A DNA stretch of 64,000 nucleotides from Chloroflexota bacterium (GTDB taxonomy: Bacteria > Chloroflexota > Dehalococcoidia > Lucifugimonadales > Lucifugimonadaceae): contig JABIFF010000006.1 in NCBI GenBank assembly GCA_018650845.1, forward strand, positions 62,001 through 126,000, given 5' to 3'. The position numbers were made by a program, and so were the translations under genes. Below are positions 6,921-62,345 of this stretch, piece after piece (the first letter of the stretch is position 1; every line of letters begins with the position of its first letter). The notes below the pieces were generated by a model. It was not told where the DNA came from and did no database searches. It was given only the letters and a program-made list of their open reading frames with translations.

Positions 6921-7032
6921 GATTTCCCGAGTGGAGTCTTCGGAACCGAGGGATCTGGTGCGGTGTCGCGCAAGTACCGACTTCTACCCGCCACCGCCCG
7001 TCCGCCGAAGATCCCTCCACGTTGGTCGGGAT
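6921..7032. repeat. Family II hairpin repeat, inverted pair
   Basis: The left unit (6921-6960) reads GATTTCCCGAGTGG...CGAGGGATCTGGTG. The right unit (about 6990-7032) is in reverse orientation; its complement reads ATCCCGACCAACGTGGAGGG then ATCTTCGGCGG. The two are different subtypes of the same unit. In the right one, CCA and TGG form an inner stem around ACG, while ATCCC and GGGAT form the outer stem. It lies between the mogA/moaB-like gene and trmD. Confidence 0.75.
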
Positions 7033-7077
7033 GTCGATCTCGGATTTAGCTGGCTCGTTCGCTCGTCATTATAAAAA

Positions 7078-7797
7078 ATGAAAATCTCGATAATCACACT
7101 GTTCCCTGAAATGTTCGAAGGCCCACTCGGCACGAGCATAGTCGGGCGCGCAGTTGAATCGAACCAAGTCGATATCAATATCGTTCAACTACGAGATTTC
7201 GCACCCGATCAAGACGGCCGTCGTACTGTCGACGAACCTCCTTTCGGAGGGGGCGCAGGAATGGTGCTTCAGGCAGGTCCTCTCGTATCTGCTGTCGATT
7301 CAGTCGCAGAAAACTCCAAGCCTGAAGAAGCACAACCCCACGTCGTACTAATGTCAGCTCAGGGCGCACCGTTAACTCATCGTCGAGCGCAGGAGCTATC
7401 TGAGATGGACTCAGTAACGCTCGTGTGTGGCCACTATGAAGGAGTCGACGAGCGATTCATTGAACTTCGAGTTGACGAAGAAATATCCATTGGCGACTTC
7501 GTTATGACCGGCGGCGAGATACCAGCGATGGCGGTGACAGATGCAATCGTCAGGCTCATTCCCGGTGTGCTTGGTGATGATGCTTCGTCGAAGCACGATT
7601 CGTTCGCTCCCGGTTCCGATTCGTTGCTTGAGGGTCCGGTTTACACCCGACCCGCTAAATTCATGGGACTCGGAGTTCCCAAGGAGTTACTGACCGGCGA
7701 CCATGCAAAGATCGAGGCATGGCGACGAAAACAGGCGCTTCGACGCACCGAAGAACGACGTCCCGATCTGCTGACCGATTGGCCAGAAACCGAATAA
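7078..7797 (+). CDS. trmD: tRNA (guanine37-N1)-methyltransferase TrmD
   Basis: Methylates G37 of tRNAs that read CUN, CCN and CGG codons, preventing frameshifts. It begins with the family signature MKISIITLFPEMF. Next come PPFGGGAGMVL near residue 59, GHYEGVDERF near 118 and the trefoil-knot SAM segment SIGDFVMTGGEIPAM near 135, then EGPVYTRP near 187. 239 residues is normal. The ATG at 7078 has only a weak ribosome site. It is followed by rplS, the conserved neighbour, but the two are separated by about 150 bp containing a promoter. Confidence 0.97.
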   Translation: MKISIITLFPEMFEGPLGTSIVGRAVESNQVDINIVQLRDFAPDQDGRRTVDEPPFGGGAGMVLQAGPLVSAVDSVAENSKPEEAQPHVVLMSAQGAPLTHRRAQELSEMDSVTLVCGHYEGVDERFIELRVDEEISIGDFVMTGGEIPAMAVTDAIVRLIPGVLGDDASSKHDSFAPGSDSLLEGPVYTRPAKFMGLGVPKELLTGDHAKIEAWRRKQALRRTEERRPDLLTDWPETE

Positions 7798-7856
7798 TCG
7801 CCACTGGCCGGTTCGGCAAGGAAGGCGCAGCCGCCAAAAATGCGGTGTGATCGGTA

Positions 7857-7886
7857 TTGCTGGATCGCCGATTTCGGAGGTAGAAT
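7857..7886 (+). promoter_or_regulatory. Predicted rplS promoter
   Basis: A -35-like TTGCTG (7857-7862), an 18-bp spacer and a -10-like TAGAAT (7881-7886) lie upstream of rplS. This gives a leader of roughly 60 nt before the L19 start at 7952. Read by eye only. Confidence 0.5.
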
Positions 7887-7910
7887 TATGGTTCTGCACT
7901 GAAACACATC

Positions 7911-7930
7911 GACGCCTCTGGGCGTCTTTT
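7911..7930 (+). promoter_or_regulatory. rplS leader hairpin with T run
   Basis: GACGCC-TCTG-GGCGTC followed immediately by TTTT, between the predicted promoter and the L19 start. It is shaped like a small attenuator and might control L19 synthesis in response to free L19 or ribosome supply. No sequence match to a known L19 leader is claimed. Confidence 0.45.
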
Positions 7931-7951
7931 CGCGACGAAAGAATTTTAGAC

Positions 7952-8305
7952 ATGGACGCCGCATCACTGGTCGAGCGCAAGACGCTAGACCATATCGAAG
8001 ACTTCCAGCCCGGTGACACCGTTACCGTGAACCTTCGCATTGTCGAAGGCGAACGACAGCGTGTTCAGGCTTTCCAGGGCAACGTAATTTCGGGCAAGCA
8101 CCGAATTGGAAAGTCTCCACTTCCAGGCGACACCTTCATGGTTCGTCGAGTTTCCTACGGCGTAGGTGTAGAGCGAATCGTTCCTTTCCACTCACCAAAT
8201 GTTGAGTCTGTAAAGGTAACCCGCAAGGGCAAGGTACGACGTTCACGCTTGTACTACCTCCGTGGTCTCACTGGCAAGAAGGCCAGAATCAAGGAACGCC
8301 GATAA
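7952..8305 (+). CDS. rplS: 50S ribosomal protein L19
   Basis: Large-subunit protein at the 30S-50S interface. The 117-residue product starts MDAASLVERKTL and contains FQPGDTVTVN, VQAFQGNVIS, FMVRRVSYGVGVERIVPFHSP and the basic end RSRLYYLRGLTGKKARI, all typical L19. An in-frame GTG at 7847 would add 35 residues that match nothing in the family and would run through the leader hairpin, so the ATG at 7952 is preferred. It follows trmD as in most bacteria and ends at a strong terminator. Confidence 0.97.
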   Translation: MDAASLVERKTLDHIEDFQPGDTVTVNLRIVEGERQRVQAFQGNVISGKHRIGKSPLPGDTFMVRRVSYGVGVERIVPFHSPNVESVKVTRKGKVRRSRLYYLRGLTGKKARIKERR

Positions 8306-8354
8306 TCGAATTTCGACCTCCGGTTTACTCTCGGAGTCGATATCGAATCTAACT

Positions 8355-8387
8355 AACCTCTGCAGTTCAACTGCGGAGGTTTTTTTA
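8355..8387 (+). terminator. Intrinsic terminator after rplS
   Basis: AACCTCTGCAGT pairs with ACTGCGGAGGTT (12 bp, one G-U-type pair, 3-base loop), followed by a run of seven Ts. It is 50 bp past the rplS stop. Confidence 0.9.
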
Positions 8388-8490
8388 TTTCTGTGCCGTT
8401 CGGTGTTTGACCGCACCAACTCAGCGCAGATAATTGCCAGCATCCTAAGTAATAGTTTTCGCCCCAGAGTTTCGGAGTAAGGAGTAGTAA

Positions 8491-10962
8491 GTGCAATTCG
8501 CCGAAGTCGCCGTCGACTTTCCAGACGAGCACTCGCGCACATTTACCTACTCAACTTCCGACGAACTCGGAATTGTTGTGGGCGATCTCGTTTGGGTCCC
8601 GTTCGGTCCTCGTACGGTGCAGGGGATTGTGTTTGAGCTCAGTGATACCCCCTCAACAGATGTCGACAAAGTTCGACCTATCACTGCGCGGACGCTCGAT
8701 GGCCCGTTCATCGCCGACCACCTTGTTCGAGTAGCAAGGTGGGTAGCCGAGTACTATCGAACAACCCTGTTTACAGCGTGTTCACTACTTCTTCCGCCGG
8801 GCGCTTCTTCCAAATTACGAACATGGCTAACTCCCGGCGCAATAAATCGTGATCTCTCAAAGCGGGAGCAACAGGCAGTCGGTTACGTCGTAGAAAACGA
8901 GCGAGCGCCGAAGTCGAGAGTGGCGAAACGACTTGGGCTGGGCGGCGGTCCTATAGTCGACAGGCTTATTCGCCAGCACATATTAAAAGCTGAATCGGAA
9001 TGGGAACGGCCGCGGGTATCAGCGGTTTACTCGAACCGAATCGAGCTCGCAGCAAGTGAGCATGTCGTCACAGAACTGATCGGAGAGTACGCAGATTCAC
9101 GACGCCCACGCCGTGCCGAATTGTTGGAATGGTTCAGTTCGGGGAAAGTTGCCCAGACGAAATCGGCGCTGAACGACTTATTCGGTGGGGCAGCAGTGAA
9201 GTGGGCCTTCGAAGAGAAACTGCTGAGCACCAGAAAAATCCGCCGAGATCGTGATCCGCTTGCCGATTACTTCTTCCAGCAGGAATTCGCACACTCGCCA
9301 ACCGAACTACAGCGATCTGCTATCGATGAAATCGTCACTCAGATCCTTTCTGCAGAGCCTGCAAAGAACCCAAGCGATAGGCAATTTCTGCTTCATGGCG
9401 TAACCGGATCAGGCAAAACCGAGGTCTATCTTCAGGCGATCGAGGCGTGTATTGCAGCCGGCAAACGAGCCATATTCCTAGTGCCTGAAATCGCCCTGAC
9501 CCCACAGACCTTACGCCGAATCGCATCCCGATTTCCGGGAAAGGTTGGGGTACTCCACTCCGGTCTCTCGATAGGCCAGCGTTACGACCAGTGGTGGCGC
9601 GTTAAAAACGGTGATTTCCCGATTGTTCTCGGTTCACGTGGAGCGATATTCGCACCCATCGAAAACCCCGGCCTAATAGTCATCGACGAAGAGCATGAGT
9701 GGACCTACAAGCAAGGAGATAAAGCTCCCCGATATCACGCACGGGCTGTGGCTGAGCGAATATCTGAGGAGACCGGCGCCACACTGGTTCTAGGCAGTGC
9801 AACTCCAGAAGTTTCGAGCTACCGTGCCGCTCTATCGGGAAACTATCGACTGCTTGAGCTTCCTGATCGCGTAGGAAGCATGCAAGCCCTCGGCAGCACG
9901 ATAAAGACGCAGGCAATGGCGAAAGTCGATATCGTCGACATGCGGGAAGAGCGTGCCGATGGTCATTTCGAGATGCTCAGCAGGCGGCTCATCGACGGAA
10001 TGCGAGATGCTCTGCAAGACGGTGGGAAAGTAATCCTTTTCCTCAACCGTCGAGGCTCTGCATCGTTCATTCAATGCATGGAATGTGGCGAAGTTCGAGG
10101 GTGTAAAAGATGCGACACTGCGCTCACTTTTCATCGTGATTCGGGTGATTCTCGTTCCCAATCCGGCAAGCTCGTGTGTCACTACTGCAACTACACCGTC
10201 GGTGCCGGATCGAAGTGTCCGTCTTGTGACGGGAAACAGATGCGTCGGTCGTCCCCGGGCACCCAGATGGCAACCGAAACGGTCAAAGAATATTTTCCAG
10301 GAATCGAAGTATTCCGCTGGGACTCTGATTCAGCTCGAACCGCTAGTGATCACCAGCGAATCATGGACGATTTTATTAAGAGTGAGGCAAGCGTGCTTGT
10401 CGGCACGCAAATGGTCGCCAAAGGGCTTGATATCCCGAGCGTCACACTAGTCGGCGTCATATCTGCTGACACCGGACTCGCCGTGCCAGATTTTCGTGCG
10501 GGAGAGCGGGCGTTTCAAGTTCTAGCGCAAGTTGTAGGGCGAAGCGGTAGGGGAGCGTGGGATGGTCGAGCGGTGATCCAGACGTTCAATCCTGATCACT
10601 ACGCAATCGAAGCGGCAGCCGATCAGGACTACAAATTGTTCTACGACACTGAAATTCGCCTCAGAGCCGCTCAAGCGAATCCACCGTTCACGAAAATGAT
10701 CAAGCTAATGCACGCTGCTGGCGACCCTGAAATGGCGAGTGCCGAAGCAGAACGAATGGCAATTGCGCTGCTCGAAGCCCGTGAATCTCACGGTGAAACC
10801 GGCGTTGAAGTAGTAGGCCCTACGCCCGCGTACCCACTTAAGATACGGAATATGTACAGGTGGCAAATATTGCTCAAGGGAGCTCATCCTGAGAGACTTC
10901 TTGAACTGGTATCGACCGGATCGTTATGGTCGGTCGACATCGATCCTGCATCGCTTGGTTAG
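8491..10962 (+). CDS. priA: Primosomal helicase PriA
   Basis: Superfamily 2 3'-5' helicase that restarts stalled replication forks. The order is an N-terminal 3'BD/winged-helix region, Walker A GVTGSGKTEVY near residue 304 and the Walker B box VIDEEHEW near 396. A zinc-binding insert with four CxxC pairs (CMEC, CKRC, CHYC, CPSC) follows between about 530 and 580. The helicase C-terminal lobe has VLVGTQMVAKGLDIP and VVGRSGRG. 823 residues is slightly longer than E. coli PriA. The GTG start has AAGGAG shortly upstream. def follows 50 bp later, a common arrangement. Confidence 0.96.
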   Translation: MQFAEVAVDFPDEHSRTFTYSTSDELGIVVGDLVWVPFGPRTVQGIVFELSDTPSTDVDKVRPITARTLDGPFIADHLVRVARWVAEYYRTTLFTACSLLLPPGASSKLRTWLTPGAINRDLSKREQQAVGYVVENERAPKSRVAKRLGLGGGPIVDRLIRQHILKAESEWERPRVSAVYSNRIELAASEHVVTELIGEYADSRRPRRAELLEWFSSGKVAQTKSALNDLFGGAAVKWAFEEKLLSTRKIRRDRDPLADYFFQQEFAHSPTELQRSAIDEIVTQILSAEPAKNPSDRQFLLHGVTGSGKTEVYLQAIEACIAAGKRAIFLVPEIALTPQTLRRIASRFPGKVGVLHSGLSIGQRYDQWWRVKNGDFPIVLGSRGAIFAPIENPGLIVIDEEHEWTYKQGDKAPRYHARAVAERISEETGATLVLGSATPEVSSYRAALSGNYRLLELPDRVGSMQALGSTIKTQAMAKVDIVDMREERADGHFEMLSRRLIDGMRDALQDGGKVILFLNRRGSASFIQCMECGEVRGCKRCDTALTFHRDSGDSRSQSGKLVCHYCNYTVGAGSKCPSCDGKQMRRSSPGTQMATETVKEYFPGIEVFRWDSDSARTASDHQRIMDDFIKSEASVLVGTQMVAKGLDIPSVTLVGVISADTGLAVPDFRAGERAFQVLAQVVGRSGRGAWDGRAVIQTFNPDHYAIEAAADQDYKLFYDTEIRLRAAQANPPFTKMIKLMHAAGDPEMASAEAERMAIALLEARESHGETGVEVVGPTPAYPLKIRNMYRWQILLKGAHPERLLELVSTGSLWSVDIDPASLG

Positions 10963-11012
10963 TACGACATCGTGATCGCACCTTTTGAGTGCTACTTGGT
11001 AGAGGAAAAAAT

Positions 11013-11777: not shown

Positions 11778-11850
11778 GCGGGTTTGCTGGTCATTTCAGC
11801 TGGGTATCTCCTCTTTTTCACAACCAAGCGTCTCCCAATCGCTCCCGATT

Positions 11851-11987
11851 GATTTCCCGAGGGCCGCGGAGGTATCTGGAGGGGACGCGCGAGTATCGAA
11901 TCCAAGAACGAACGTCCTATCCGGCGTGAAATCTCGCGAACCCATCCCCAGATCCCTCAATTCCGCCGACCCCACTCGGGAAATCGA
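11851..11987. repeat. Family II hairpin repeat, inverted pair
   Basis: Left GATTTCCCGAGGGCCGCGG then AGGTATCTGGAGGGG. Right CCCCAGATCCCTCAATTCCG ending CACTCGGGAAATC. The ends match other family II copies; the centres are diverged. It lies between def and secD. Confidence 0.7.
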
Positions 11988-12077
11988 TGATTCCTAAGCC
12001 GATTCGTGGGCAATTTCGTAAGTGAGATATTCACCCAAACGAGACTTGAATTCCCAAGCGAATTTGTACGTAGCCGG

Positions 12078-23931: not shown

Positions 23932-24654
23932 TTACGAGCCTGGAGTCCAGAGTCCTGAACCACCGTCGCCAGCTTCAGGAGCGGCTTGTGGGGCAGGTGG
24001 CTCGCCAGCTGCTGCACGAGCCTGCTCTTCAGCCATCTGCTGTCGAATAGCTTCGTTAGCCTGCTGCACCCATCGTTCGAGTTCATCGAGCTCAGGTGGT
24101 GAAACAACGAATTTTTCTACGCCTTCAGGAAGAGCGATGTTTGGGTCGCCACCAAGCAGCAAAGCCGCTTCTGATTCTCCGATTCCCTCTGAAAGACGAT
24201 TTGCCAGATGAGAAACACGTTTGTCGGCTGCTTCGGTGTAGTGAGCCTGAATCGTGTCGGCAACGGTTCGGTTGATCAGGCCACTCTGAAGACAACGTCC
24301 CCAGTCAATTACCTGTCCGAAAAGATCAGTGTCTTCGAACTCTTCAAATTCTGCACCGGCGGCAACTCGTGATCGAACGAGCTTGTGTGCGCCCGGGTTC
24401 GATTGTTGAACCATCAGCATGGCGTCGTCACCCCGACCTATCACGCCCTCTGCGAATACGCGATTTACAGTTCCAGCCTTGGCTTCAAGCTGAGAAACTT
24501 GTTCTTCAACCGCAGCCCAGTAGGCGTTGTAGCGTTCTTCGAAGCCGTCCGGCGCACCCTGTGAAGGCTGTACCAGCGTCACCATGTAAACCTTGCGGCT
24601 AGTCAAAATATCGCCAGCGGCTTTGTTGCCAACGTTACCCAGTTCTTCAGACAT
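23932..24654 (-). CDS. Conserved hypothetical protein between ychF and hemW
   Basis: A 240-residue soluble protein that I do not recognise. It begins with a short extended region (KVYMVTLVQPSQGAPDGF), followed by long helices including AYWAAVEEQVSQLEAK and ELERWVQQANEAIRQQMAEE. It ends with a low-complexity tail rich in Ala, Pro and Gly. No signal peptide, membrane helix or catalytic motif is visible. A clear AAAGGA precedes the ATG. Its tight placement between ychF and hemW (26-46 bp gaps) makes one operon with them and suggests a housekeeping role, possibly in translation or stress, but this is inference only. Confidence 0.7.
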   Translation of the reverse strand: MSEELGNVGNKAAGDILTSRKVYMVTLVQPSQGAPDGFEERYNAYWAAVEEQVSQLEAKAGTVNRVFAEGVIGRGDDAMLMVQQSNPGAHKLVRSRVAAGAEFEEFEDTDLFGQVIDWGRCLQSGLINRTVADTIQAHYTEAADKRVSHLANRLSEGIGESEAALLLGGDPNIALPEGVEKFVVSPPELDELERWVQQANEAIRQQMAEEQARAAAGEPPAPQAAPEAGDGGSGLWTPGS

Positions 24655-31199: not shown

Positions 31200-32102
31200 T
31201 TACGCGTCACGCCAAGTAACTTTTGGCTCCCAGCCGAGTACCCGTTTTGCCTTTTCGACCGATATAGCGGTCGCATTACCGGGCATTGGTGTACGAATTT
31301 CGGCTTCCGGGTAGACCTTCTTGATCAGTTCTTCAGTTGGCTCGTCGGCTGAAGTATCTTCACCATTTATGAAGAACGCCTCGTGTCCGCCGAACTCAAC
31401 TTCTATCGCCAGTACGCACGCCCGTGCTGCCTCTGCGAAATCGGTCCAGCCCCAAAAATGCTTGGCGTTGTTGCCGTAAGCGCCCTGGCGTTCGTCAGCA
31501 GCATTTAGAGCAGTTTGTCGTTCTCGATCCATCAAGCCGTGAAATCTCATCGAAGCGATTTGTACTTCACCGGGACGACGACGCACGAACGCATCAGCTA
31601 ATTCTTCGCTAATCCACTTACCGACGGAGTAGGCGTCTTCGGCGAAAGTCGGGTGCTCTTCGTCCATTGGGAAGTATGGTCGAGGAGTAATTCCCTTCGA
31701 GAAAACCGCACCGACAGCGTTCACCGAAGAAGCTAAAACTACTTTGCTAATGCCGTGAATTTCCGCAGCCTCAAGCACATTCCAATTGGAAGTCATATTT
31801 ACTCGGAAAACTTCGTGTTCCGGCGCAATGATCGGGTTCGTAATCGCAGCCATGTGGATCACAGCGTCACAATTCTTCATTGCTGAAAGCACTTGGCCAA
31901 AGTCGGTTACATCGACAAATTTGAAGGTGTAGCCGGGTACTCGCACTTGGCGTGAATCGTTGGACGAATTGAGATCGACCCCAACCACGTCATAGCCGTT
32001 TTCTAAAAGGTCTTTGACGATGAACTGTCCGGCGCGTCCAGATGCTCCAGTTACGAAAACGGTTGTCATAGTTTTGTTGCGACTTTCTTGGTTCTTAGAC
32101 AC
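31200..32102 (-). CDS. NAD-dependent epimerase/dehydratase (extended SDR)
   Basis: Extended short-chain dehydrogenase, about 289-300 residues. The dinucleotide site is FVTGASGRAGQFI, and the active-site dyad is in YSVGKWISEE (YxxxK). The Ser is in ASSVNAVG. It has the extended-SDR C-terminal substrate region. It is similar to NAD(P)-binding nucleotide-sugar epimerases but the substrate is unknown; PTE and enolase neighbours hint at sugar-acid metabolism. The start could be ATG at 32069 (MTTVFV) or the ATG at 32102; the later one fits the fold. It is flanked upstream by a repeat pair. Confidence 0.82.
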   Translation of the reverse strand: MSKNQESRNKTMTTVFVTGASGRAGQFIVKDLLENGYDVVGVDLNSSNDSRQVRVPGYTFKFVDVTDFGQVLSAMKNCDAVIHMAAITNPIIAPEHEVFRVNMTSNWNVLEAAEIHGISKVVLASSVNAVGAVFSKGITPRPYFPMDEEHPTFAEDAYSVGKWISEELADAFVRRRPGEVQIASMRFHGLMDRERQTALNAADERQGAYGNNAKHFWGWTDFAEAARACVLAIEVEFGGHEAFFINGEDTSADEPTEELIKKVYPEAEIRTPMPGNATAISVEKAKRVLGWEPKVTWRDA

Positions 32103-32105
32103 CCT

Positions 32106-32296
32106 CGTCCCGACCGCAGCAAAGCGGAGTGGAGGGATCAGTAGTCAGATGGGATCATCTGGCGATTCAGTGAAAATTGATCTTGCCATTATCGGCTGAA
32201 CTGACGCGCAAATACACAGCATTCGTCGAGATTCTTCTGAATGGCTAGATTCTTGAAGGATCGTTTGTGATCCCTCCGCTGCGGTCGGGACGAGGG
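32106..32296. repeat. Family II hairpin repeat, inverted pair
   Basis: The left unit (32106-32140) reads GTCCCGACCGCAGCAAAGCG ending AGGGATCA. The right unit (32268-32296) is its reverse complement without ten central bases. The inner stem is CCGC/GCGG here. It lies between the SDR gene and the beta-propeller gene. Confidence 0.8.
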
Positions 32297-32382
32297 CAAT
32301 CCGTATAGCATCCCGTTTGATCTGAGAGATTTCGAGTTGCTGTGCGGTATTGCAGGTCGAGGTAAATCAGCCCCAACAGAAA

Positions 32383-33093: not shown

Positions 33094-33191
33094 GAGGTCT
33101 CTCGTTTACTAGTGCTTAGTGCGTTATCTATCTGCGGCGGTAGTGTAGCGCGCTACTGCGGAGAGCGGGGAGGAAATTCGCCTAATACGAC

Positions 33192-33240
33192 ATCCCGACT
33201 CCTGCGGAGGGATCTTCGGCGGGGTTTGAGGTGATGGGGG
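33192..33240. repeat. Family II hairpin repeat, single
   Basis: ATCCCGACTCCTGCGGAGGG then ATCTTCGGCGGGG. Inner stem CTCC/GGAG with loop TGC, outer ATCC/GGAT. The first 24 bases are the same as in the copy at 53791, 20 kb away. Confidence 0.75.
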
Positions 33241-36497: not shown

Positions 36498-36665
36498 TGT
36501 CATTGCGAGAAGGCCAAAGGCCGCCGTGGCAATCAACATCGTCGAGCAACGCTGCATCGCTACAGGCGCACCGATTAGCCCTCGGCAACATCTAGTCAGA
36601 TAGAACAATCCAGCCAAAGCCGACTGATTGCCACGTCGCCTCAAGGCAGGCTCCTCGCAATGACA
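36498..36665. repeat. Family I hairpin repeat, inverted pair
   Basis: The left unit (36498-36535) is TGTCATTGCGAGAAGGCC then AAAGGCCGCCGTGGCAATCA. The right unit (36626-36665) is reversed, GATTGCCACGTCGCCTC then AAGGCAGGCTCCTCGCAATGACA. Inner stems are GGCC/GGCC on the left and GCCT/AGGC on the right, which differ in sequence but both pair. It lies between uppP and a convergent cupin gene. Confidence 0.8.
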
Positions 36666-39555: not shown

Positions 39556-39604
39556 ATTTTTGAGACTGTACTAGGGTCTCGGGCAGCCGCAATCGCGACC
39601 CTTG

Positions 39605-39739
39605 CCCCAGATCCTTCGACTCCGCTGACTCCGCTCAGGAAATCACATGTTTGCTTGGGGAATATCAGAATCTTTTGGAACGACCCTCAAACCCCAACCA
39701 TAGATTTCCCGAGTGCCGGCGAGGGATCTGGTGGGGGGG
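39605..39739. repeat. Family II hairpin repeat, inverted pair
   Basis: The left unit (39605-39643, reversed) is CCCCAGATCCTTCGACTCCG then CTGACTCCGCTCAGGAAAT. The right unit (39703-39739) is GATTTCCCGAGTGCCGGC then GAGGGATCTGGTGGGG. The left unit uses TCCTGAGC..., which joins the TCCTGA-type repeats to family II. It lies between two convergent genes. Confidence 0.7.
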
Positions 39740-39775
39740 CGTTAGTCCTTGGCATCATCGAGCCACAGGCGCACT

Positions 39776-41442: not shown

Positions 41443-42489
41443 CTACTCGCCGTGACCGGTGATGAGTCCTTCTGAACCTGGGTGTCGAGTCTTCGAATCA
41501 AGCTTCGAAGTCACTTCTGGGTTCTGACCAGCACTTGGCCATTCGCCACGAAGAACCGACGCAACCTGCTGCGAAGCACGCTGACGCGCCAGCCACGCTG
41601 AACGAGTTGATTGACCCGCTGAGTGTGGTGCGGTGATTACGTTCTTCATCTGAAGAAGAGGGTTGTTAGGGTCAACCGGTTCTTGTTCGAACACATCTAG
41701 CCCAGCGCCCCGCATCTTGCCCTGTTGGAGGGCTTCGATCAACGCTGGCTCATCGTTTACCGAACCACGGCAAACGTTGATGTAGTAAGCAGATTCCTTC
41801 ATCACGTCAAACTGTTCTTTGCCGATCATGTGGAACGTTTCTGCGTTCAACGGAACCACTACAACGATGTAATCAGCTCGTTCGAATAGATCATTGAGTT
41901 CAAAGACTTGTTCCACACCATATTCGGTGATGATCCACGGCTCTACATAGGGATCGTAAACGATCGTGTCCATGCGCCATCCTTGACCGAGCTTGCGTGC
42001 GACCTGGCGTCCGATATTTCCGAATCCTACGATTCCAAGAGTCTGCTCGTCGATTGGCTCGATCGGCCCTAACTCCCCGGCGTTCCATCGTCCATCTCGC
42101 AATTGGAGAGTCGATTGCACAGTCTGGCGGTTGAGAGCCAGCGTCATTGTTACGGCTTGGTTAGAAACCTCTTCTGCACACATGCCAGCACCGTTTGTCA
42201 CGATGATGCCCATGTCGGTCGCTGCATCCACATCGATGTGATTGAAACCGTGTGAGTAGACAGCGAGAACCTGTGCCTGGTCAGCAGCTTTGATTACCTG
42301 TTCTGAACCCCAGCCACCACGCATCATGATAGCGTCGGCGCCTCGGACGGCTTCCATTGCCTCGCCCTCAGACTGGGGGGCTTCCTGAACAAATTCCACA
42401 TCAAGATCGGCCATTTCGGCACGCTCGTGATACAGCGGATCGTCGGTGTCTCCACCCAGTACTACAACTCGTTGCTTTGCCATTTTCAT
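41443..42489 (-). CDS. D-2-hydroxyacid dehydrogenase, paralogue 1
   Basis: A 348-residue NAD-dependent dehydrogenase of the D-isomer-specific family. The Rossmann motif is GIVGFGNIGRQVARKL near residue 154. Catalytic Arg, Glu and His are in INVCRGSVNDEP, DVFEQEPVD and TAPHSAGQ. It is third in a run of three related genes on the minus strand. It follows paralogue 2 by 58 bp and has a TTGGAG site. Shares the stretch DVFEQEPVDPNNPLL with both others. The substrate is unknown, probably a hydroxyacid from organic-matter or sugar-acid breakdown. Confidence 0.9.
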   Translation of the reverse strand: MKMAKQRVVVLGGDTDDPLYHERAEMADLDVEFVQEAPQSEGEAMEAVRGADAIMMRGGWGSEQVIKAADQAQVLAVYSHGFNHIDVDAATDMGIIVTNGAGMCAEEVSNQAVTMTLALNRQTVQSTLQLRDGRWNAGELGPIEPIDEQTLGIVGFGNIGRQVARKLGQGWRMDTIVYDPYVEPWIITEYGVEQVFELNDLFERADYIVVVVPLNAETFHMIGKEQFDVMKESAYYINVCRGSVNDEPALIEALQQGKMRGAGLDVFEQEPVDPNNPLLQMKNVITAPHSAGQSTRSAWLARQRASQQVASVLRGEWPSAGQNPEVTSKLDSKTRHPGSEGLITGHGE

Positions 42490-42547
42490 TACTCCAAAAG
42501 ATAAGTAGGAGACTAGCTATCAATGCCAGCCCATAGAAAAACTCGAA

Positions 42548-43621
42548 TTACTTGCCCTGCTCGGCGAGCATGACTTCCCAGCTAACGGCCCAGTTGCGAG
42601 GCTCTACTGTGCTTCGAACATCTGGGTTGATCAGTGACATTGGCCAGTAGCCAAGAGCTACTCGCATCGCCTCTTCACCAAGCTGGGTGTTTGCACGACT
42701 CCACGCAACCTCACTGTAGGAAGCGTAGTGGTTAGTTACAGATACGTTGTCCATCTTGAGCAACGGGTTGTTTGGGTCGACAGGTTCCTGCTCGAACACA
42801 TCGAGACCTGCACCGGCGATCTTGCCCTGCTGAAGTGCTTCGATCAACGCTTTCTCGTCGACCACAGGTCCACGTGAGCAGTTGATCAGGTAAGCAGTTG
42901 GCTTCATTAGGTCGAAGAACTCTGCGCCAACCATGTGATGTGTTGCAGGTGTCAGGTACGTGTGAGGTGAAACATAGTCAGATCGCTTGGCGATTTCCTG
43001 AGGAGTTCCAACCATCTCAACGCCGTATTCCTTAGCGTCCCACGAGGAAACGAAAGGATCGTAGCCGATAACTTTCATGCCGAAAGCCTGCGCCTTACGA
43101 GCAACGGTTCGGCCGATGTCACCGAGTCCGATGATTCCGAACGTCTGGCCGGAAATGTGACCCATTGGAGCGAGGTGATCGCGAGTCCACGTGCCACCCT
43201 TTACGAGCTTGTCGTGCAGTACAAATTTTCGTGAGCAAACGAGGAAGTGCATCATCGTCTGGTTGCTAACTTCTTCAGTACCGAACGAAGCAGTGTTAGC
43301 AAGGACAACGCCGTTTTCAACCGCTGCGCCGAGATCCATACCGTCATATCCATGACCGAAGGAAACCAGTCCCTTGCAGCGACCGTTGTTGCCCATGTGT
43401 ACGAACAGGTCAGGCGATACGCCGTGACCCGCAGCCATGGCTACATCGGCGTCTTTGAGCGCTTCGATTAGCTCGCCATCGCTGTCGCCATCGTAAACAA
43501 CAAATTCGGCACCCATTTCAAGCGCTGCTGCGCTCTGGTGAGGGAAATCTGCAGCGGTACCGTTCCGCATGTTCTTAGGGCCTAGGAATAAAACTCGTTT
43601 GTCTTTTGCGTCTGCGGTCAT
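42548..43621 (-). CDS. D-2-hydroxyacid dehydrogenase, paralogue 2
   Basis: A 357-residue family member. The NAD site is FGIIGLGDIGRTVARKA near residue 162. Catalytic residues are in INCSRGPVVDEK, DVFEQEPVDP and VTNHYASYS. The last differs from the usual APH context (NH) but keeps the His. N-terminal RVLFLGPKNMRNG is a distinctive start. Middle gene of the three; AAGAGA precedes the ATG at 43621. Gaps to its neighbours are 46 and 58 bp, consistent with one transcript. Confidence 0.9.
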   Translation of the reverse strand: MTADAKDKRVLFLGPKNMRNGTAADFPHQSAAALEMGAEFVVYDGDSDGELIEALKDADVAMAAGHGVSPDLFVHMGNNGRCKGLVSFGHGYDGMDLGAAVENGVVLANTASFGTEEVSNQTMMHFLVCSRKFVLHDKLVKGGTWTRDHLAPMGHISGQTFGIIGLGDIGRTVARKAQAFGMKVIGYDPFVSSWDAKEYGVEMVGTPQEIAKRSDYVSPHTYLTPATHHMVGAEFFDLMKPTAYLINCSRGPVVDEKALIEALQQGKIAGAGLDVFEQEPVDPNNPLLKMDNVSVTNHYASYSEVAWSRANTQLGEEAMRVALGYWPMSLINPDVRSTVEPRNWAVSWEVMLAEQGK

Positions 43622-43667
43622 GGGTCTCTTTAGGTTTCAGCTAAGGGTTGTACTGGCTAGAAAATAT

Positions 43668-44630
43668 TTATTCGGGTTTGACGATGCTATCGGGCGTACC
43701 GCCATCCCAAACCTTCATCATGTTGTCGAAGGCGAATCGTACTCTTCTTGGATAGCTTTCGTAACTCTTACCAGCAATATGCGGAGCGACTACGACGTTA
43801 TCTCGCTTGAGCAGCGGATTGTTTGGGTCGACCGGTTCTTGCTCGAACACGTCGAGTCCTGCACCCCAAATCTCGCCATCTTCAAGTGCCTGTTCGAGAG
43901 CTATTTCGTCGACCACAGGACCTCGACACGTATTGATTAATGTCGCGGTATTTTTCATCAGGCGAAGCTCGCGTTCGCTGATCAATGCACGTGTGCTGTT
44001 GTCGAGCGGAGTGTGAAGCGTGACGATGTCGGATCGTTCGAGAAGTTCGTCGAGTTCTACTCTGGTCGCACCGAAGCTCTCGGCTTTTTCGCTGCGGACT
44101 TTGTCGGTGTAGAGCGTGGTTGTGTCGAAGCCACGCAGCATGCCTGCCACGTTGCTGCCGATTTTTCCTGCGCCAACGATGCCGACGGTAGCACCGAATA
44201 ATTCGTGAGAGTCACGACCGTCGACCTCAGGCCGCATCCAGTCTCCAGCCTTGGTATCCATGTTGGAGACACCGAGATGTCGAATGGTCGAAAGCATGAG
44301 CGTGAGGGCGAATTCAGCAACGGGAATTGCGTTCGCTCCGCCGTTGTTCGACACCGGGATTCCCATTTCGCCAGCAAGACCTAGATTTACGCCATCGAAC
44401 CCTGCCGAACAAAGTTGAACCAACTTGGTTTTCTTGGCGAGTCGAAGCGTGTCATCGTCGACACCGTGACCGAACACCAGAATGAAATCTGCCAGCTCTG
44501 CCGCTTCGGCAACTTCTTCAGCCGACGAATCTGTGGTGCGAACGTGCAAATTCCAGTCGTCAGGTTTCATCTCGTTCGCCATGTCCAATAGCGGCAGGGC
44601 GGGACCAGAAAATACGAGGACTTCAGGCAT
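43668..44630 (-). CDS. D-2-hydroxyacid dehydrogenase, paralogue 3
   Basis: A 320-residue family member, first in the operon. The NAD motif is VGIVGAGKIGSNVAGML near residue 149. Catalytic residues are in INTCRGPVVDE, DVFEQEPVDP and VAPHIAGKS. It is shorter than the other two and closer to phosphoglycerate dehydrogenase-like enzymes in layout. AGAGAG lies upstream of the ATG at 44630. The upstream gap holds a strong inverted repeat that may carry the promoter region. Confidence 0.9.
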   Translation of the reverse strand: MPEVLVFSGPALPLLDMANEMKPDDWNLHVRTTDSSAEEVAEAAELADFILVFGHGVDDDTLRLAKKTKLVQLCSAGFDGVNLGLAGEMGIPVSNNGGANAIPVAEFALTLMLSTIRHLGVSNMDTKAGDWMRPEVDGRDSHELFGATVGIVGAGKIGSNVAGMLRGFDTTTLYTDKVRSEKAESFGATRVELDELLERSDIVTLHTPLDNSTRALISERELRLMKNTATLINTCRGPVVDEIALEQALEDGEIWGAGLDVFEQEPVDPNNPLLKRDNVVVAPHIAGKSYESYPRRVRFAFDNMMKVWDGGTPDSIVKPE

Positions 44631-44979
44631 GTTGATTCGATCTCTCTTTGACTAGTTCGATGCGTTCTTCGAAACGAACTCGGGCATTGTAGAACTTGGG
44701 AGTGATCTTTGTATTTTCCTGATCGAGAGAATCTGGTTGTCGCGATTACAAACTTCCCGAGTGCATCCGAGGGATCTGGTGGGGTCGCGGTCGTCAGCAT
44801 GGACACATCGCAAGTTCGGGCGGCAACGCGTCACCCCACCAGATCCCTCGGATGCACTCGGGAAATCGATTGTTCTCCAATTCGAATTTCACTCTCCGTT
44901 ACGTCCCACATGGCCTCCCAACACGTATGCTTCTGTCTCCTGAAAACTTCCTACTACCGAACCCTAAGAACACTCGTAA
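44631..44979. other. 349-bp divergent promoter region
   Basis: Separates the dehydrogenase operon (minus) from the M42 peptidase gene (plus). It is dominated by a perfect 32-bp inverted repeat of family II (44754-44864). I see no gene in it. Promoters for both directions must lie here but none is clear by eye. Confidence 0.7.
44754..44864. repeat. Family II repeat, perfect 32-bp inverted pair
   Basis: The left arm, 44754-44785 (TTCCCGAGTGCATCCGAGGG then ATCTGGTGGGGT), is the exact reverse complement of the right arm, 44833-44864, with a 47-bp spacer. It is the best-conserved pair in the window and can form a long cruciform or hairpin. Confidence 0.9.
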
Positions 44980-53708: not shown

Positions 53709-53790
53709 TCGGCTGCTCTCCACGGATTCTTGATTGCACGCCGAAAATGTACACCTATCACCGCGGTGTTAGGAAGGTACTGACACCCGA

Positions 53791-53834
53791 TATCCCGACT
53801 CCTGCGGAGGGATCTTTGGTGGTGATGTGAGGGG
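53791..53834. repeat. Family II hairpin repeat, single
   Basis: TATCCCGACTCCTGCGGAGG then GATCTTTGGTGGTGATGTG. It shares the same inner stem CTCC/GGAG as the copy at 33192. It lies between the unknown 473-residue gene and the ABC transporter gene. Confidence 0.75.
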
Positions 53835-55841: not shown

Positions 55842-55874
55842 AAAAAAGCGGCCAGCACATGTGCCGACCGCTTT
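55842..55874 (-). terminator. Intrinsic terminator after the tRNA genes
   Basis: On the minus strand, AAAGCGG and CCGCTTT form the outer stem, with a palindromic GCACATGTGC inside, followed by TTTTTTG. It lies 14 bp after tRNA-Glu and would end the tRNA transcript. Confidence 0.85.
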
Positions 55875-55887
55875 ATTTTGCTACTTA

Positions 55888-55963
55888 TGGTAGCCCCAAG
55901 GGGATTTGAACCCCTGTTTCAGCCTTGAGAGGGCCGTGTCCTGGGCCACTAGACGATGGGGCC
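55888..55963 (-). tRNA. tRNA-Glu (anticodon CUC)
   Basis: 76 nt including the encoded CCA. The acceptor is GGCCCCA with TGGGGCT and a G-U end pair. The anticodon loop CUCUCAA has anticodon CUC at 34-36. The T arm has GGTTCAAATCC. It reads GAG codons. First of two minus-strand tRNA genes listed by coordinate; transcribed after tRNA-Gln. Confidence 0.93.
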
Positions 55964-55968
55964 CTTGT

Positions 55969-56042
55969 TGGCTGCCGATCCAGGGATCGAACCTGGGTTA
56001 CCAGATTCAGAGTCTGGTGTCTTACCGCTAGACGAATCGGCA
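55969..56042 (-). tRNA. tRNA-Gln (anticodon CUG)
   Basis: 74 nt including the encoded CCA. Acceptor TGCCGAT with ATCGGCA. The anticodon stem CCAGA/TCTGG surrounds the loop CUCUGAA, giving CUG, which reads CAG. The T arm has GGTTCGATCC. It lies five bases upstream of tRNA-Glu on the same strand, so the pair is one transcript. Confidence 0.93.
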
Positions 56043-57189: not shown

Positions 57190-57214
57190 GACGGTTACTT
57201 AGTAAATTACAAAT

Positions 57215-57245: not shown

Positions 57246-57369
57246 GTTTAACGCGAGTAAGTCAGCAAGTGAGAAATATGGCATACCTGTGCGATGTTAT
57301 TGGTGTCCAATTCGTCGAATCTTCCTCACGTCGGTGTCAACGATGGCGTCGATATAAGGAGGAACCGAA

Positions 57370-57936: not shown

Positions 57937-58083
57937 GGCAGCCTTTCCGATCAACTGTATGGCGAAAATCTAAGGCGCTCACCTCCTTGAGCCGGTCGTG
58001 ATTCTTCACTCTTCTGTGTTGAATCCGATCGGCGGAGTGGGTGATGTTGGGATTGCTGAGATTGTCGACGGAGCTGTTATCAC

Positions 58084-60873
58084 TCAAACCAATCCTAGCT
58101 CGACAGCCGCTTTACTCGCTTCAGTGCGGTTCGATACATCGAGTTTCGAAAATACGTTGCTCAAATGCCTGACCACTGTGTGCCGACTCAATACCAACTC
58201 TTCGGCAATTTCAGGATTCGATTTGCCCGAGTACATCAATCGAAGTATTTCTAGCTCTCGACTGGTTAGTCCTGCGGTCCGTTTTTTTCGCCCAGCTGCC
58301 TGAAGCTCAAGTGAATCGAATCTTTCGTTCAAAGCAACGATTCCACCGCGTGTCGCTGTCCGTCGACCGGAGCTTATGGCTTGCGCGATAGCTGTTTCGC
58401 CATATGAGTGACGAACCAAGTGAGCTGCTAGGTCGAACCGCAGCCACGATTCTGTAAATAGCTGCCCGCTTTCAGTCGCCAGAGAGATTGCTTGCTCGAA
58501 TTCATCGTCGGCTTCTTTTTTCAATCCGGCCAAACTCGTCACACCAGGTAAGTATGGGAGTTCGAGCACCTGTAATCGCTCTTGAATCAATTGTTCGCGC
58601 AATTGCTGGTAGTCGTCTGATCGACCGTCGAGCGCTAAGCAAGCACGAGCGAGTAGAGCTCCGACACTCAGCTGACTGGTAGATTGTGTCCGCAATTCAA
58701 TAGCTGAAATAGAACGTTCAACCTCTTTGAATAATTCTGCAGTTTCGTTCGCCCTGTAAGCCATTATCAAGTGCCGAGTACTAGATCCTTCTCCACTGTC
58801 CCGCCGTTGTTCGGCTGTCGCCATGAATCCCGAAAATGCATCGGTATACGCTTCCGCATTGCCTGTCATCGATTCGATCACAACACTTAACCCAAGCACT
58901 CTGTCGTCTGTTGGGAACAACTGAAGAGCCAATTGAACATGCTCACGTGCCGACTCCCAATCACAAACCTTGATAAACGCGCTGATTAGCACTTTGTGTG
59001 ATGAACTAATTCGCTCGTTTATGTGCGATTCAATAGATTGAGCTAGCGATCGTGTTAAGTATTCGATCCCACGCGCTGTTTCTCCTAGAGCCATGTCGAA
59101 TATGCCTAAATGGAGGTAGGCTCCGCTCTCAGATAAAGAATCAGAAGTCACTTTTGCAAGTTGTTCGATTCGAACGCAGTAACTGCGTGAGTCTAAATAT
59201 TCACCATTGAAAGCTGCGACATTTACGCCATCGCCAGATAATTGCATTTCCAGATTCGCATCCTCAAGCTGCTGGGCGATACGGATTCCGCTCTCGAGCA
59301 AAGATTGAGCACGAGAGTAATCTCCTCGAACCATGCCTACTGATCGACCAAGCCGTCCCAAAATATTTGCTTCGATCTTGCTGTCGGGTTCAGCCAGTTC
59401 CAGAGCGGCCTCGTAAACCTCTATGCCTTGCGACATCCCGACGGTATCGATGAATCTGATCTGGGCGATTTCCAAGGCCAAATCGATCATTCCGGCACCA
59501 ACGTAATATCTAAACGATCGCTCGAAGTACTGTGCTATTTCTGAATCTCTATCAGTACCAGAGCCAGCAACAACTATTCCTCGCATCGCCTCTGCAAGAG
59601 ATTCATCCACCATTTCCGAACCCGAAATCTCGATCACTCGTGTGTAGTGAATTGCAGCTCTCTCAACCGAAAACGTTTTCATCGCTTCTCTGGCGGCAAG
59701 AATCAACAACCGAACCAAACGCTGAACCTCGATCAACGGTCTAGCGTGCTCTGCATGGAACACCAGAACCTCAGATTGTTCTTGAAGACTGTTCTCAAAT
59801 TCAGTTTCAAGGGCGTCTAAATATCGGGTGTGAATTTGTGACTTCCGGTGCTTTCCTATTCTTGATGCGATCACTTCACGAACAACCGGGTGCCTGAAAC
59901 TGTACGAACCGTCTAGCTCAGGATCCTCCGATAAAAACTTTTGCTGAACAGCTTCATCGATTGACTCCGCAATTTCTTGAAGACTCCATGAATCGCCGCT
60001 GTTGGCGACAATCGATATTGTTGATCGCCTGATTTCTCGGGACGCGAGAGAGCACAGTTCCAGAAGCTCGATAGTTCTAGGCTTCAGCAAATTGAGCCGG
60101 TACTCAACTGCTAGCCGCAATGTGCTCGAAAGTTCACCATTTGAACTTAAGCTCGCCATCAAACCTAGTTCCGAAACAAATAAAGGATTTCCACCTGATC
60201 TCTCGAAAACATCCGCCCAGGGAATATCTTGTCCTGAAGCCTTTTCAAGTCTGCCTACGAGATCGCGTGTCTCTGCCTCTGTAAATGATTCCAGCATGAT
60301 CAATTCGGAATCGGCGGTTCTCATCAAGCTGAGCAATGCTTGTTTTGAAACGACGGAAACATCTTCTAATTGCTGTCGGTATGTAGCAATCAAACCGACC
60401 GCTGCTCCTTCAAGTCCCGGCGCAATATGCGCTAGAAGCCGAAGGGAGTCTTCGTCAGCCCAGTTCAAATCTTCCAACACGATCAGAATGGGGCGCTCCG
60501 CTGCAACTTTTCGAACGGCTGCGGCGATCGATTCAAAAGCCACAAATTCACGCCGAGCACGTGTAGTGGGATCTAGGAGTGCCGCATCAGCATCTTCAAA
60601 ATCGAGAGGGTTGGAAATACCCAGCTTGTCTAGAACGCTCTGCCACAACCAGTAGGGTGGAGTGCCGCCATGAGCAACGCTAGTCGAACGAATACCCACT
60701 ACATTAGCCGATTGGGAGAGCTGTAGTACGGCGCTTGTAAACGTCGTTTTGCCGACACCTGATTCGCCAGCAACAGCGACTACGAACGACGCACCACACG
60801 ACAACGCGTGCAATCGGTTGCGAAGGTTTTCAAGCTCTCGATTTCGACCAACAAAAAAATCAGGAAAGATCAC
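58084..60873 (-). CDS. Large LuxR-type regulator with AAA ATPase (LAL/MalT-like)
   Basis: A 929-residue STAND-type regulator. The N-terminal AAA domain has VGRNRELENLRNRL and Walker A AGESGVGKTTF near 36. Next is the Walker B region ILIVLEDLNWADED near 129. A long helical and TPR-like sensor region runs from about 380 to 850. The C-terminal LuxR helix-turn-helix (GLTSRELEILRLMYSGKSNP, near 867; SRHTVVRHLSNVF) binds DNA. It probably binds an unknown ligand or protein. GTG start at 60873 with a weak ribosome site. Its target could be nearby but none is proven. Confidence 0.9.
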   Translation of the reverse strand: MIFPDFFVGRNRELENLRNRLHALSCGASFVVAVAGESGVGKTTFTSAVLQLSQSANVVGIRSTSVAHGGTPPYWLWQSVLDKLGISNPLDFEDADAALLDPTTRARREFVAFESIAAAVRKVAAERPILIVLEDLNWADEDSLRLLAHIAPGLEGAAVGLIATYRQQLEDVSVVSKQALLSLMRTADSELIMLESFTEAETRDLVGRLEKASGQDIPWADVFERSGGNPLFVSELGLMASLSSNGELSSTLRLAVEYRLNLLKPRTIELLELCSLASREIRRSTISIVANSGDSWSLQEIAESIDEAVQQKFLSEDPELDGSYSFRHPVVREVIASRIGKHRKSQIHTRYLDALETEFENSLQEQSEVLVFHAEHARPLIEVQRLVRLLILAAREAMKTFSVERAAIHYTRVIEISGSEMVDESLAEAMRGIVVAGSGTDRDSEIAQYFERSFRYYVGAGMIDLALEIAQIRFIDTVGMSQGIEVYEAALELAEPDSKIEANILGRLGRSVGMVRGDYSRAQSLLESGIRIAQQLEDANLEMQLSGDGVNVAAFNGEYLDSRSYCVRIEQLAKVTSDSLSESGAYLHLGIFDMALGETARGIEYLTRSLAQSIESHINERISSSHKVLISAFIKVCDWESAREHVQLALQLFPTDDRVLGLSVVIESMTGNAEAYTDAFSGFMATAEQRRDSGEGSSTRHLIMAYRANETAELFKEVERSISAIELRTQSTSQLSVGALLARACLALDGRSDDYQQLREQLIQERLQVLELPYLPGVTSLAGLKKEADDEFEQAISLATESGQLFTESWLRFDLAAHLVRHSYGETAIAQAISSGRRTATRGGIVALNERFDSLELQAAGRKKRTAGLTSRELEILRLMYSGKSNPEIAEELVLSRHTVVRHLSNVFSKLDVSNRTEASKAAVELGLV

Positions 60874-60966
60874 TGCAGTACCCTTTGTGCCGATTATGCA
60901 CGATTCCTGAATAGCAATTGGGTTACGTTTTGATTGGTCCGAGCATTGTCCGCAATCGAAATTTAT

Positions 60967-62145
60967 TCAAACCGATCCGCGGGAGATCGACTCGTTACCG
61001 AAACGTTCGCGGATGGTGTCGAGAGCTTCGCTGGTGTCGGAATCTGCCATTGGGTTTTGATCAAGAAGCGATAGCTGTGCGGCCTGTTCGCCTAGACCCG
61101 ATACGCCAACACCGATCAATCTAATTGCGTCACCACGCTGTCTCATGGCTGTCACTAGTAGGGCGTGGGCGGTGTCGTAGATCAGCTGGTCGCCGTCTCC
61201 GGGAGCTTGGAAAGTTCTCTGGCGAGTGATCGTTGTGAAGTCGCCATAGCGCAGTTTGATACTCGCACCGCGAGCGCGCTGTCCTGATTTGCGAAGCCGG
61301 GTCCCAACTCGTTCACACAATTTCTTCAGCGATTTTTCTAATTCAGATCGACTCGAGACGTCCTTTTCAAACGTCGTCTCTGCGCTAATAGATTTCGCCT
61401 TCACACGTTCTCGCAAAGGAGCGTTATCGATACCACGGGCACGACGCTGAACATGTGCCGCGTTGTTCGGTCCCAGAGCCCTACGCAGCGGACCTATCTG
61501 TGCAGCTGCGAGTTCTCCGAGTGTGGTGATTCGAAGCTTGCTCAACGCTTCGCCAGCCTTTGGGCCGATGCCGGGTAGGTTGCGAACTGGCTGCGGAGCG
61601 AAGAACGCCTCCGCTTCTTGTTGCCTCACCTGAAAGACGCCGTCAGGTTTGGCGTGTTCCGATCCTACTTTTGCGACCAGTTTGTTGGGGCCAATTCCAA
61701 TCGATGCCGGAAGTCCAAGCGCATCACGAACTGCTTTGCGAATTCGATCGGCAGCGTCGATTGGTTCACCGTAGAGTCGCTCAGATCCCGTCATGTCGAG
61801 ATAGGCTTCGTCGACGCTCACTGGTACGACGTTCGGAGAATACTCACGAAGGATGTTCATGAATTTTTTGGAGACATCTCGGTAGAGCTCGTGATTGCCT
61901 CGCATGTAAATGGCGTCGGGGCAGAGCCGACGAGCCACGGCGGTTGCCATGGCGGAATGAACACCGAATTTTCGTGCTTCGTACGAAGCTGTCGCTACGA
62001 CTCCCCGAGGACCCGTGCCACCGATTACGACTGCTTTGCCGCGTAGGTTGGGGTCGTTTTGACGTTCGACTTCAACATAGAACGCGTCGAGATCAACGTG
62101 AAATATCACACGCTCTTTGTCGAAGTTTATTGAGTCGCCAGTCAT
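60967..62145 (-). CDS. dinB: DNA polymerase IV
   Basis: Y-family lesion-bypass polymerase, 392 residues. Catalytic motifs: FHVDLDAFYVEVER near residue 14 and PVSVDEAYLDMTG near 102. The thumb has the helix-hairpin-helix GIGPKAGEALSKL near 197. The little-finger domain follows (FEKDVSSRSELEKSLK, then GDFTTITRQRTF). The ATG at 62145 is clear. No beta-clamp motif is obvious at the end, though LSLLDQN near 367 (in AAQLSLLDQN) may serve (QLSLL-type clamp peptide). It lies between the regulator and the rib genes. Confidence 0.95.
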   Translation of the reverse strand: MTGDSINFDKERVIFHVDLDAFYVEVERQNDPNLRGKAVVIGGTGPRGVVATASYEARKFGVHSAMATAVARRLCPDAIYMRGNHELYRDVSKKFMNILREYSPNVVPVSVDEAYLDMTGSERLYGEPIDAADRIRKAVRDALGLPASIGIGPNKLVAKVGSEHAKPDGVFQVRQQEAEAFFAPQPVRNLPGIGPKAGEALSKLRITTLGELAAAQIGPLRRALGPNNAAHVQRRARGIDNAPLRERVKAKSISAETTFEKDVSSRSELEKSLKKLCERVGTRLRKSGQRARGASIKLRYGDFTTITRQRTFQAPGDGDQLIYDTAHALLVTAMRQRGDAIRLIGVGVSGLGEQAAQLSLLDQNPMADSDTSEALDTIRERFGNESISRGSV

Positions 62146-62232
62146 ACGAGCAGGTTAGCACCCGAGGTGGGGAATCTCGAAGCGAGTGGTGGCTGGGTTT
62201 TCATGAAGCTGCTGGCGCAATCTCGTGCCCTA

Positions 62233-62345
62233 TATCCCGACCAACGTGGAGGGGTCTTCGGTGGGGCAGGGGTGATGGGAGACGTGACGTTCGCGCTACC
62301 CCGCACCAGATCCCTCGACTACGGATGCACTTCGTTCGGGAAATC
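62233..62345. repeat. Family II hairpin repeat, inverted pair
   Basis: The left unit (62233-62280) is TATCCCGACCAACGTGGAG then GGGTCTTCGGTGGGG. The right unit (62297-62345) is reversed, CCCCGCACCAGATCCCTCGA ending GTTCGGGAAATC. The inner stem CCA/TGG on the left is like the right-hand copy at 6990. It lies between dinB and ribH. Confidence 0.75.

Follow-up and report, generated by a model that had tools for sequence, protein, structure and literature searches.

Facing pairs of covarying hairpins in a Dehalococcoidia genome: a probable REPIN-like branch of the CGTC-tagged repeats

The closest described relatives of the repeats reported here are the CGTC-tagged repetitive extragenic palindromes (REPs), which occur with TGTC and CCTC variants of the tag, have a stem that starts with A and T, and form head-head dimers (tags outside), many of them heterodimers, placed 3' of genes (PMC3733652, in the passages drawn on here). 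Those passages give the CGTC repeats no dedicated transposase and leave open what moves them; they report them from 5 phyla, given unnamed, name the Chloroflexi for GTAG repeats, and assign dRS3 of Neisseria and RPE-4/-6 of Rickettsia to the CGTC superfamily. For the Chloroflexota, a table in PMC12306157 (RepRanger) lists predicted REPs in members such as Dehalococcoides mccartyi. In this work we describe a family of hairpin repeats from a 64-kb stretch (the window) of contig C13 in the metagenome-assembled genome (MAG) of a Chloroflexota bacterium (2.48 Mb, 24 contigs, 87% complete), and we consider it likely that they are small, non-autonomous mobile elements of a REPIN-like family, which forms a branch of the CGTC-tagged REP superfamily.

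A covariance model built from the window units (R1) recovers 14 units of one hairpin repeat in the window (weakest E 2.7e-8; Table 1), ten of them arranged as five facing pairs, two placed back to back at 39.6-39.7 kb and two occurring singly. The original prediction had recognised a shared frame, TCCCGA..., at eight loci, and it is present at all eight, at three of them inexactly: at 39605 it is TCCTGA...GAAGGATC, in minus-strand orientation, and at 11851 (GAGGTATC) and 62233 (GAGGGGTC) it carries one mismatch each. Overlooked were six partners (ends 7031-, 11981-, 32290-, 39707+, 44863- and 62341-) and, with them, the organising unit of the family, two hairpins that face each other and are mostly unlike. 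The motif GAGGGATC matches 12 times in the window, where 2.2 matches are expected, and 0 of 100 shuffles came to 12. The full frame, TCCCGA...GAGGGA, is a stem that leads into a conserved GA/GA mismatch. The letters of the inner stems quoted previously (CTCC/GGAG, CCGC/GCGG and CCA/TGG) are there, but their registers differ, so that they do not make up one covarying helix; the two sides do change together in the outer stem and in the pair inside GA...GA. The whole-genome search with a covariance model that had been proposed yields 130 matches in the MAG (E<=1), and covariation appears in three unit sets, so the repeats are many covarying copies and not the debris of one recent insertion. The expectation of an undescribed structured repeat thus holds for structure, covariation and copy number, while the kind is known and files with the CGTC-tagged REP superfamily (PMC3733652). 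An Rfam scan of the window at the gathering score returned two tRNAs only, with nothing for the hairpin units.

In each unit the short outer stem covaries, GA...GA follows it almost without variation, and a further covarying pair, S-S', closes a variable core. Across 124 units aligned from the MAG (set A2, core lengths 5 to 24 nt) 98.0% of cells in the outer stem TCCC/GGGA are paired, two pairs of this stem shift from C-G to T-A on both sides (17 cells versus 1.9 by shuffle), and the pair inside GA...GA is G-C in 69 units and C-G in 51. Two further sets comprise 47 units (39 distinct) from 30 loci in six genomes of other genera (A3) and 72 units (62 distinct) from 17 loci, not all 114 matches, of G013, a complete single-contig chromosome of the same genus with 3,094,136 bases (A4). 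When the 198 distinct units of all these genomes are pooled, the outer pairs p2, p3 and p4 are Watson-Crick in 191, 192 and 190 units (shuffle means 162.6, 163.6 and 143.9) and S-S' in 191 (95.5 by shuffle), counts reached by 0 of 2000 shuffles, with G-C in 104 units and C-G in 85 at the latter position. The S-S' signal recurs among the distinct units of G013 (60 of 62 versus 30.9 by shuffle) and of the other genera (37 of 39 versus 21.6). The shuffles keep relatedness, so no p-values are given and the weight rests on replication across genera and on slid controls, where covariation stays at or below 0.085 against 0.17 and 0.325 at the true positions.

The outer pairs that vary are p3 and p4 in the MAG, p1, p2 and p4 in the other genera, and p2, p3 and p4 (p1 weakly) in G013. 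GA...GA, two bases on each side between the outer stem and S-S', is intact in 191 of the 198 pooled units; pairing is held on both sides of this step while the step itself is not converted into pairs, and it probably forms a tandem G.A step. A CGNAG core, with any base at N, occurs in 117 of 242 units overall (36 of 47 in A3, 32 of 72 in A4, and 49 of 123 in the own genome, one unit with a stem gap being left out) and is absent from the other 74 own-genome units; where present, it would make a C(GNA)G triloop. Such triloops are stable, and the likeness of our units to the d(GCGNAGC) mini-hairpin and to tandem sheared G.A pairs, as judged from sequence, consists in CGNAG standing beside GA/GA.

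Units closer than 400 nt to one another mostly face each other: the MAG has 35 facing neighbours, 1 back to back and 3 in tandem (127 of the 130 R1 matches used, three partial ones dropped), and G013 has 23, 2 and 3, which matches the head-head dominance of the CGTC-tagged REPs. The tag sides point outward and the partners are mostly 15-280 nt apart, with one overlapping pair. Among 53 facing pairs, sought up to 300 nt, 34 join a type A to a type B unit and 52 have unequal cores, the sole exception being the pair at window 44748-44870. The orthologous site in G013 pairs a type A unit with a type B unit, which suggests that the equal arms in the window arose by later homogenisation.

Element ends can be approached in one subfamily, of which 13 pairs were aligned (11 from the MAG, 2 from G013): subterminal sequence is conserved, similarity is kept over about 170 bp, middles are variable, four pairs holding another hairpin repeat nested there, and flanks are unrelated. 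Other pair types keep their arms and conserve little of the spacer. In T-head type-B units the outer end lies 14 nt out from the stem; G stands there in 68% of 54 own-genome units (61% of 31 type-B units in G013), and past it there is little conservation. This end is not common to the 17 G-head units nor to type A. A search for an autonomous copy, as facing units 0.4-4 kb apart, gave two neighbour cases (G013 72020/74374 and MAG contig C5 180031/181614). We also note hairpin repeats of the TGTCATCCTGA type nested inside described pairs at L163 6085-6311 and 7997-8298, L115 2001-2237 and 5361-5594, and L145 2001-2300, an arrangement that suggests successive insertions.

The family extends well beyond the window. 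R1 finds 114 matches in G013 (E<=0.1) and, at E<=0.01, matches in 28 of 60 genomes, the MAG included, with none in the other 32, four of which belong to the same genus. A second model, R2, built from units of the other-genus genomes, has matches in 56 of 201 Chloroflexota genomes; its counts per genome are lower bounds, the best candidates (at most 29) having been scored in each. A scan of named genomes with the type-B pattern gave 31 stretches, 26 of them in Chloroflexi/Dehalococcoidia MAGs or Candidatus Lucifugimonas marina JH1073 (CP046147.1) and 5 in scattered others, and the same pattern had 0 matches among viral contigs, where phage carriage would have appeared. Lucifugimonas is placed in SAR202 (PMC10444878, in the part consulted). 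SAR202 bacteria are a group of the deep ocean. The units are unevenly distributed: in G013, 55 of the 114 lie in the first 600 kb and 1 in the stretch from 0.6 to 1.1 Mb (variance/mean of 4.7 per 100 kb), and in the MAG the density is 145 per Mb on C13, 144 on C10 and 14 on C17, with none on the 107-kb C3, a difference between contigs that could be a local effect or a matter of binning.

Compared with the passages on CGTC-tagged REPs in PMC3733652, sister-genus units share the tag, reading TGTCA in 31, CGTCA in 6, CCTCA in 5 and TGTCG in 1 of the 43 with a full head. CGTCA stands in 12 of 70 units of G013, whereas own-genome heads are mostly other, and type B there has mostly lost the tag (nGATT). 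As to the A/T stem start, units of the other genera have A-T just outside TCCC in 30 of 35 cases, and the own genome has mostly T..T there (50 of 104). Common heterodimers and the preference for convergent and unidirectional gaps are matched here, but the CGTC-tagged REPs have loops of 4-5 nt in place of our 5- to 24-nt cores, and the GA/GA step that interrupts our stem is not mentioned in the text of those passages. The window family is therefore best filed as a derived branch of this superfamily. It resembles REPINs and RAYT-linked GTAG REPs, in the parts of PMC3116915 and PMC6006769 used here, in having two inverted hairpins per unit, intergenic placement and many copies, and differs in that the hairpin foot carries no GTAG/GTGG tag and no RAYT was detected in the genome; by the tests made, it works like a REPIN and is not a RAYT-REP. 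The class 3 TnpA-Y1 elements with a CnGA foot (passages of PMC6006769) are likewise atypical high-copy hairpins; type-B heads here read nGAT, a loose match that may be chance, and no Y1 gene was detected here. The likeness to dRS3, mostly in large clusters in Neisseria, follows from the superfamily assignment in PMC3733652 and not from sequence comparison. REP-like repeats in Chloroflexota are already in print in PMC12306157, of which the passages drawn on here give counts, with no such structure and no SAR202. A term search of PMC10444878 found no match for such repeats in the text covered, and among the matches listed by literature searches, sequence strings included, no title concerned this fold or repeats of Dehalococcoidia, which is not proof of absence.

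Sites with more than one unit are mostly facing hairpin pairs and lie between genes, 3' of them. With ORFs (open reading frames) called by a simple longest-ORF rule, the 86 MAG sites divide into 43 in convergent gaps, 34 in same-direction gaps, 3 in divergent gaps, 5 in ORFs and 1 at an edge, and the 49 sites of G013 into 14, 27, 4, 3 and 1. The loci read contain 63 convergent, 133 same-direction and 39 divergent gaps in the MAG and 22, 116 and 22 in G013, so that a site is present in 43/63 convergent versus 3/39 divergent gaps in the former (Fisher 6.7e-10) and in 14/22 versus 4/22 in the latter (0.005), with occupancy inflated in every gap class by the picking of loci around matches. The median distance to a gene 3' end is 51.5 nt in the MAG and 71 nt in G013. 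No TTTTT occurs within 12 nt of any of 172 site ends in the MAG or 98 in G013 (1.1 and 0.7 expected at random places), so that, with no T-tract after the hairpins, intrinsic terminators are not indicated.

Occupancy also differs between species. Matches to the 44-63.9 kb region of the window, many with their order kept, occur in 19 of 19 genomes of the genus. The 44.7-kb site is occupied in 2 of 9 aligned genomes and the 62.2-kb site in 3 of 12, being filled in G009 and empty in G014 and G012, both 84-88% identical to G009 there. At the 53.75-kb site (13 sequences aligned) units are present in the window, in seven relatives by R1 and in G013 by eye, with none in three and one ambiguous; in four relatives a pair stands in the place of the window's single unit, which is probably a half-lost pair. 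Unit loss certainly occurs, and unit gain probably does.

Site occupancy, defined ends and unrelated flanks together point to mobility. In the mechanism we envisage, the hairpin would be recognised as single-stranded DNA in a subterminal position, and an enzyme would copy or move the facing pair, in the way that HUH transposases handle the hairpins of IS200/IS605 and of REPs. That enzyme would not be a resident Y1 visible to the Pfam model, and may have been lost or be of another kind. Copies would persist where they are harmless, downstream of genes, and some may secondarily act at mRNA 3' ends.

Searches for Y1 and IS110, the sole transposase families searched, found no linked transposase. 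PF01797 (Y1) occurs in 78 of 201 Chloroflexota genomes and in 0 of 18 same-genus relatives, and a RAYT as resident mobiliser is rejected for the genus. We read 45 distinct Y1 loci out of more than 150 Y1 matches (2 from G021, 30 best-match loci, four of which come from genomes with at least 5 R2 matches, and 13 added); they cover 10 of the 14 R2-rich genomes having Y1, leaving out G092, G136, G140 and G162. The first locus set gave one unit match, at E 0.95. A TGTCATTCTGA hairpin at L272 1744-1840 (G077), with a facing partner seen by eye, lies 3' of a 549-aa Y1-domain ORF, the usual 3' placement, and a second match lies within that ORF; L261 has a possible pair about 2 kb from a Y1 gene, and L274 one unit match near a Y1 gene (E 0.014). 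Long Y1 ORFs like that of L272 occur in several genomes of G077's family.

Several results weigh against a mobile family. PF01797 is absent from the MAG and from the complete G013 and was found in just 1 of the 60 genomes, the MAG being among them. Genomes with at least 5 R2 matches have it in 14 of 29 cases and lack it in 15, against 64 of 172 with it among the others, which is no association (Fisher 0.30), and 0 of the 45 Y1 loci have units on both sides (three have them on one). At 57.2 kb, G014 and G012 have pairs that are half lost, so some absences are losses, and no target duplication or clean empty site is readable at 57.2 or 62.2 kb, the relatives being too divergent. All 13 aligned subfamily pairs differ, so current activity is not demonstrated. 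On the structural side, covariation is missing from p1 and p2 in the own genome and from p3 in A3, and seven of seven single units folded no better than shuffles (z -0.3 to +1.6, DNA parameters).

The lack of PF01797 throughout the relatives of the genus, together with the many single units and the half-lost pairs, is what a fossil family would leave, in which a RAYT or other enzyme was lost genus-wide and just decay and local arm homogenisation go on; we regard this as possible but doubtful, given the 62.2-kb site filled in G009 and empty in its relatives and the length over which subfamily copies remain similar, both of which are still compatible with an old loss. Another reading takes the units as selected RNA elements, transcribed 3' UTR (untranslated region) hairpins that guard mRNA ends or aid termination and are kept for that role. 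It fits the strong bias to convergent and same-direction gaps, the short distances to gene 3' ends and the good folding of facing pairs (median z -3.4, 32 of 53 below -2, RNA parameters), yet the same 3' bias is also expected from selection against promoter hits, the site ends show no sign of intrinsic terminators, and orthologous gaps of sister species are without units, so that we judge it unlikely.

Template-switch correction of quasi-palindromes could equalise arms without any hairpin function and leave covariation as a by-product, and the perfect 32-bp inverted repeat at 44.7 kb, set beside its mixed G013 ortholog, looks like such an event. Correction would also pair GA/GA, however, which is kept almost throughout, and the compensated positions sit within single units and recur in other genera; as a general account it seems to us improbable. 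By analogy with dRS3, the units might instead be target or attachment sites of an IS110/IS1111/Piv-type recombinase. IS110-family genes occur in 10 of the 60 relatives, and at L248 (G021) a facing pair at 2675-2838 lies 143 nt downstream of such a gene, before a convergent gene, but at E<0.05 the two models together place a unit match at just two of 19 IS110 loci and leave 17 without; those two, L248 and L250, are not homologous, and the MAG has no IS110 match. One suggestive locus does not make a consistent association, the link is not supported, and we would give this idea very little credence.

We therefore return to the REPIN-like family as the preferred reading of a repeat that is real, structured and covarying, ordinary in kind and novel as a variant. 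The clade is marine, includes cultured strains and has a complete genome (PMC10444878, as far as consulted), which makes the question of CGTC-REP mobility testable, and the family adds new handles on it: no Y1 detected, a structural signature and one defined element end. Such repeats may also become easier to find in other phyla with a fold signature that allows the sequence to vary. A bolder and tentative suggestion is that the CGTC-REP superfamily is defined by a so-far-unnamed single-stranded DNA fold (outer stem, invariant tandem G.A step and closing pair, in many cases with a C(GNA)G loop) and that an enzyme other than Y1/RAYT actively moves its members as facing heterodimers; if so, the SAR202 genomes would offer a cultured system for finding that enzyme.

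Table 1. Hairpin units in the window, with R1 scores
Feature	Position	Strand	Score and remarks
Type B unit, long core; left partner of facing pair 6918-7038	6918..6968	+	44.8 bits, E 6.8e-13
Type A unit, CCAACGTGG core; right partner of pair 6918-7038	6997..7038	-	44.3 bits, E 1e-12
Type B-like unit, core GAGGGCCGCGGA, G..G in place of G-C; left partner of pair 11848-11988	11848..11889	+	43.3 bits
Type B unit, long core; right partner of pair 11848-11988	11938..11988	-	39.8 bits
Type A unit, long core; left partner of pair 32101-32297	32101..32152	+	31.5 bits, E 2.7e-8; exact 19-bp inverted arms
Type A unit, short core; right partner of pair 32101-32297	32256..32297	-	32.6 bits
Single type A unit, CTCCTGCGG core	33186..33227	+	43.3 bits
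Type B unit, outer stem TCCT/AGGA (compensated); back to back with 39700 unit	39597..39647	-	36.8 bits; the MAG's one back-to-back case
Type B unit, short core	39700..39741	+	47.6 bits
Type B unit; left arm of perfect 32-bp inverted repeat, between divergent genes	44748..44789	+	43.4 bits; pair fold z -11.5
Type B unit; right arm of 32-bp inverted repeat, core same as left	44829..44870	-	49.5 bits
Single type A unit; pair at orthologous site in four relatives	53786..53827	+	44.6 bits
Type A unit; left partner of pair 62228-62348	62228..62269	+	39.0 bits
Unit with long core, A..C at S-S' position in this copy; right partner of pair 62228-62348	62296..62348	-	44.5 bits
Weak 15th match inside ORF 23932-24654, probably chance	24160-24200		18.4 bits, E 9e-4

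The window holds other repeats as well. A second hairpin repeat family at 787-1271 and 36498-36665 has the form TGTCATTGCGAGGA...TCCTCGCAATGACA and includes CGTGGCAATCA parts, and at 1149-1271 there is an inverted repeat of 26 bp, TGTCATGCTGAACTTGATTCAGTATC, which is perfect; both start TGTCAT, like the CGTC superfamily. At 55842-56042 the minus strand carries two tRNA genes, next to which lies an imperfect palindrome, and three related 195-nt stretches lie at 41638-43988, one in each of three neighbouring minus-strand ORFs.

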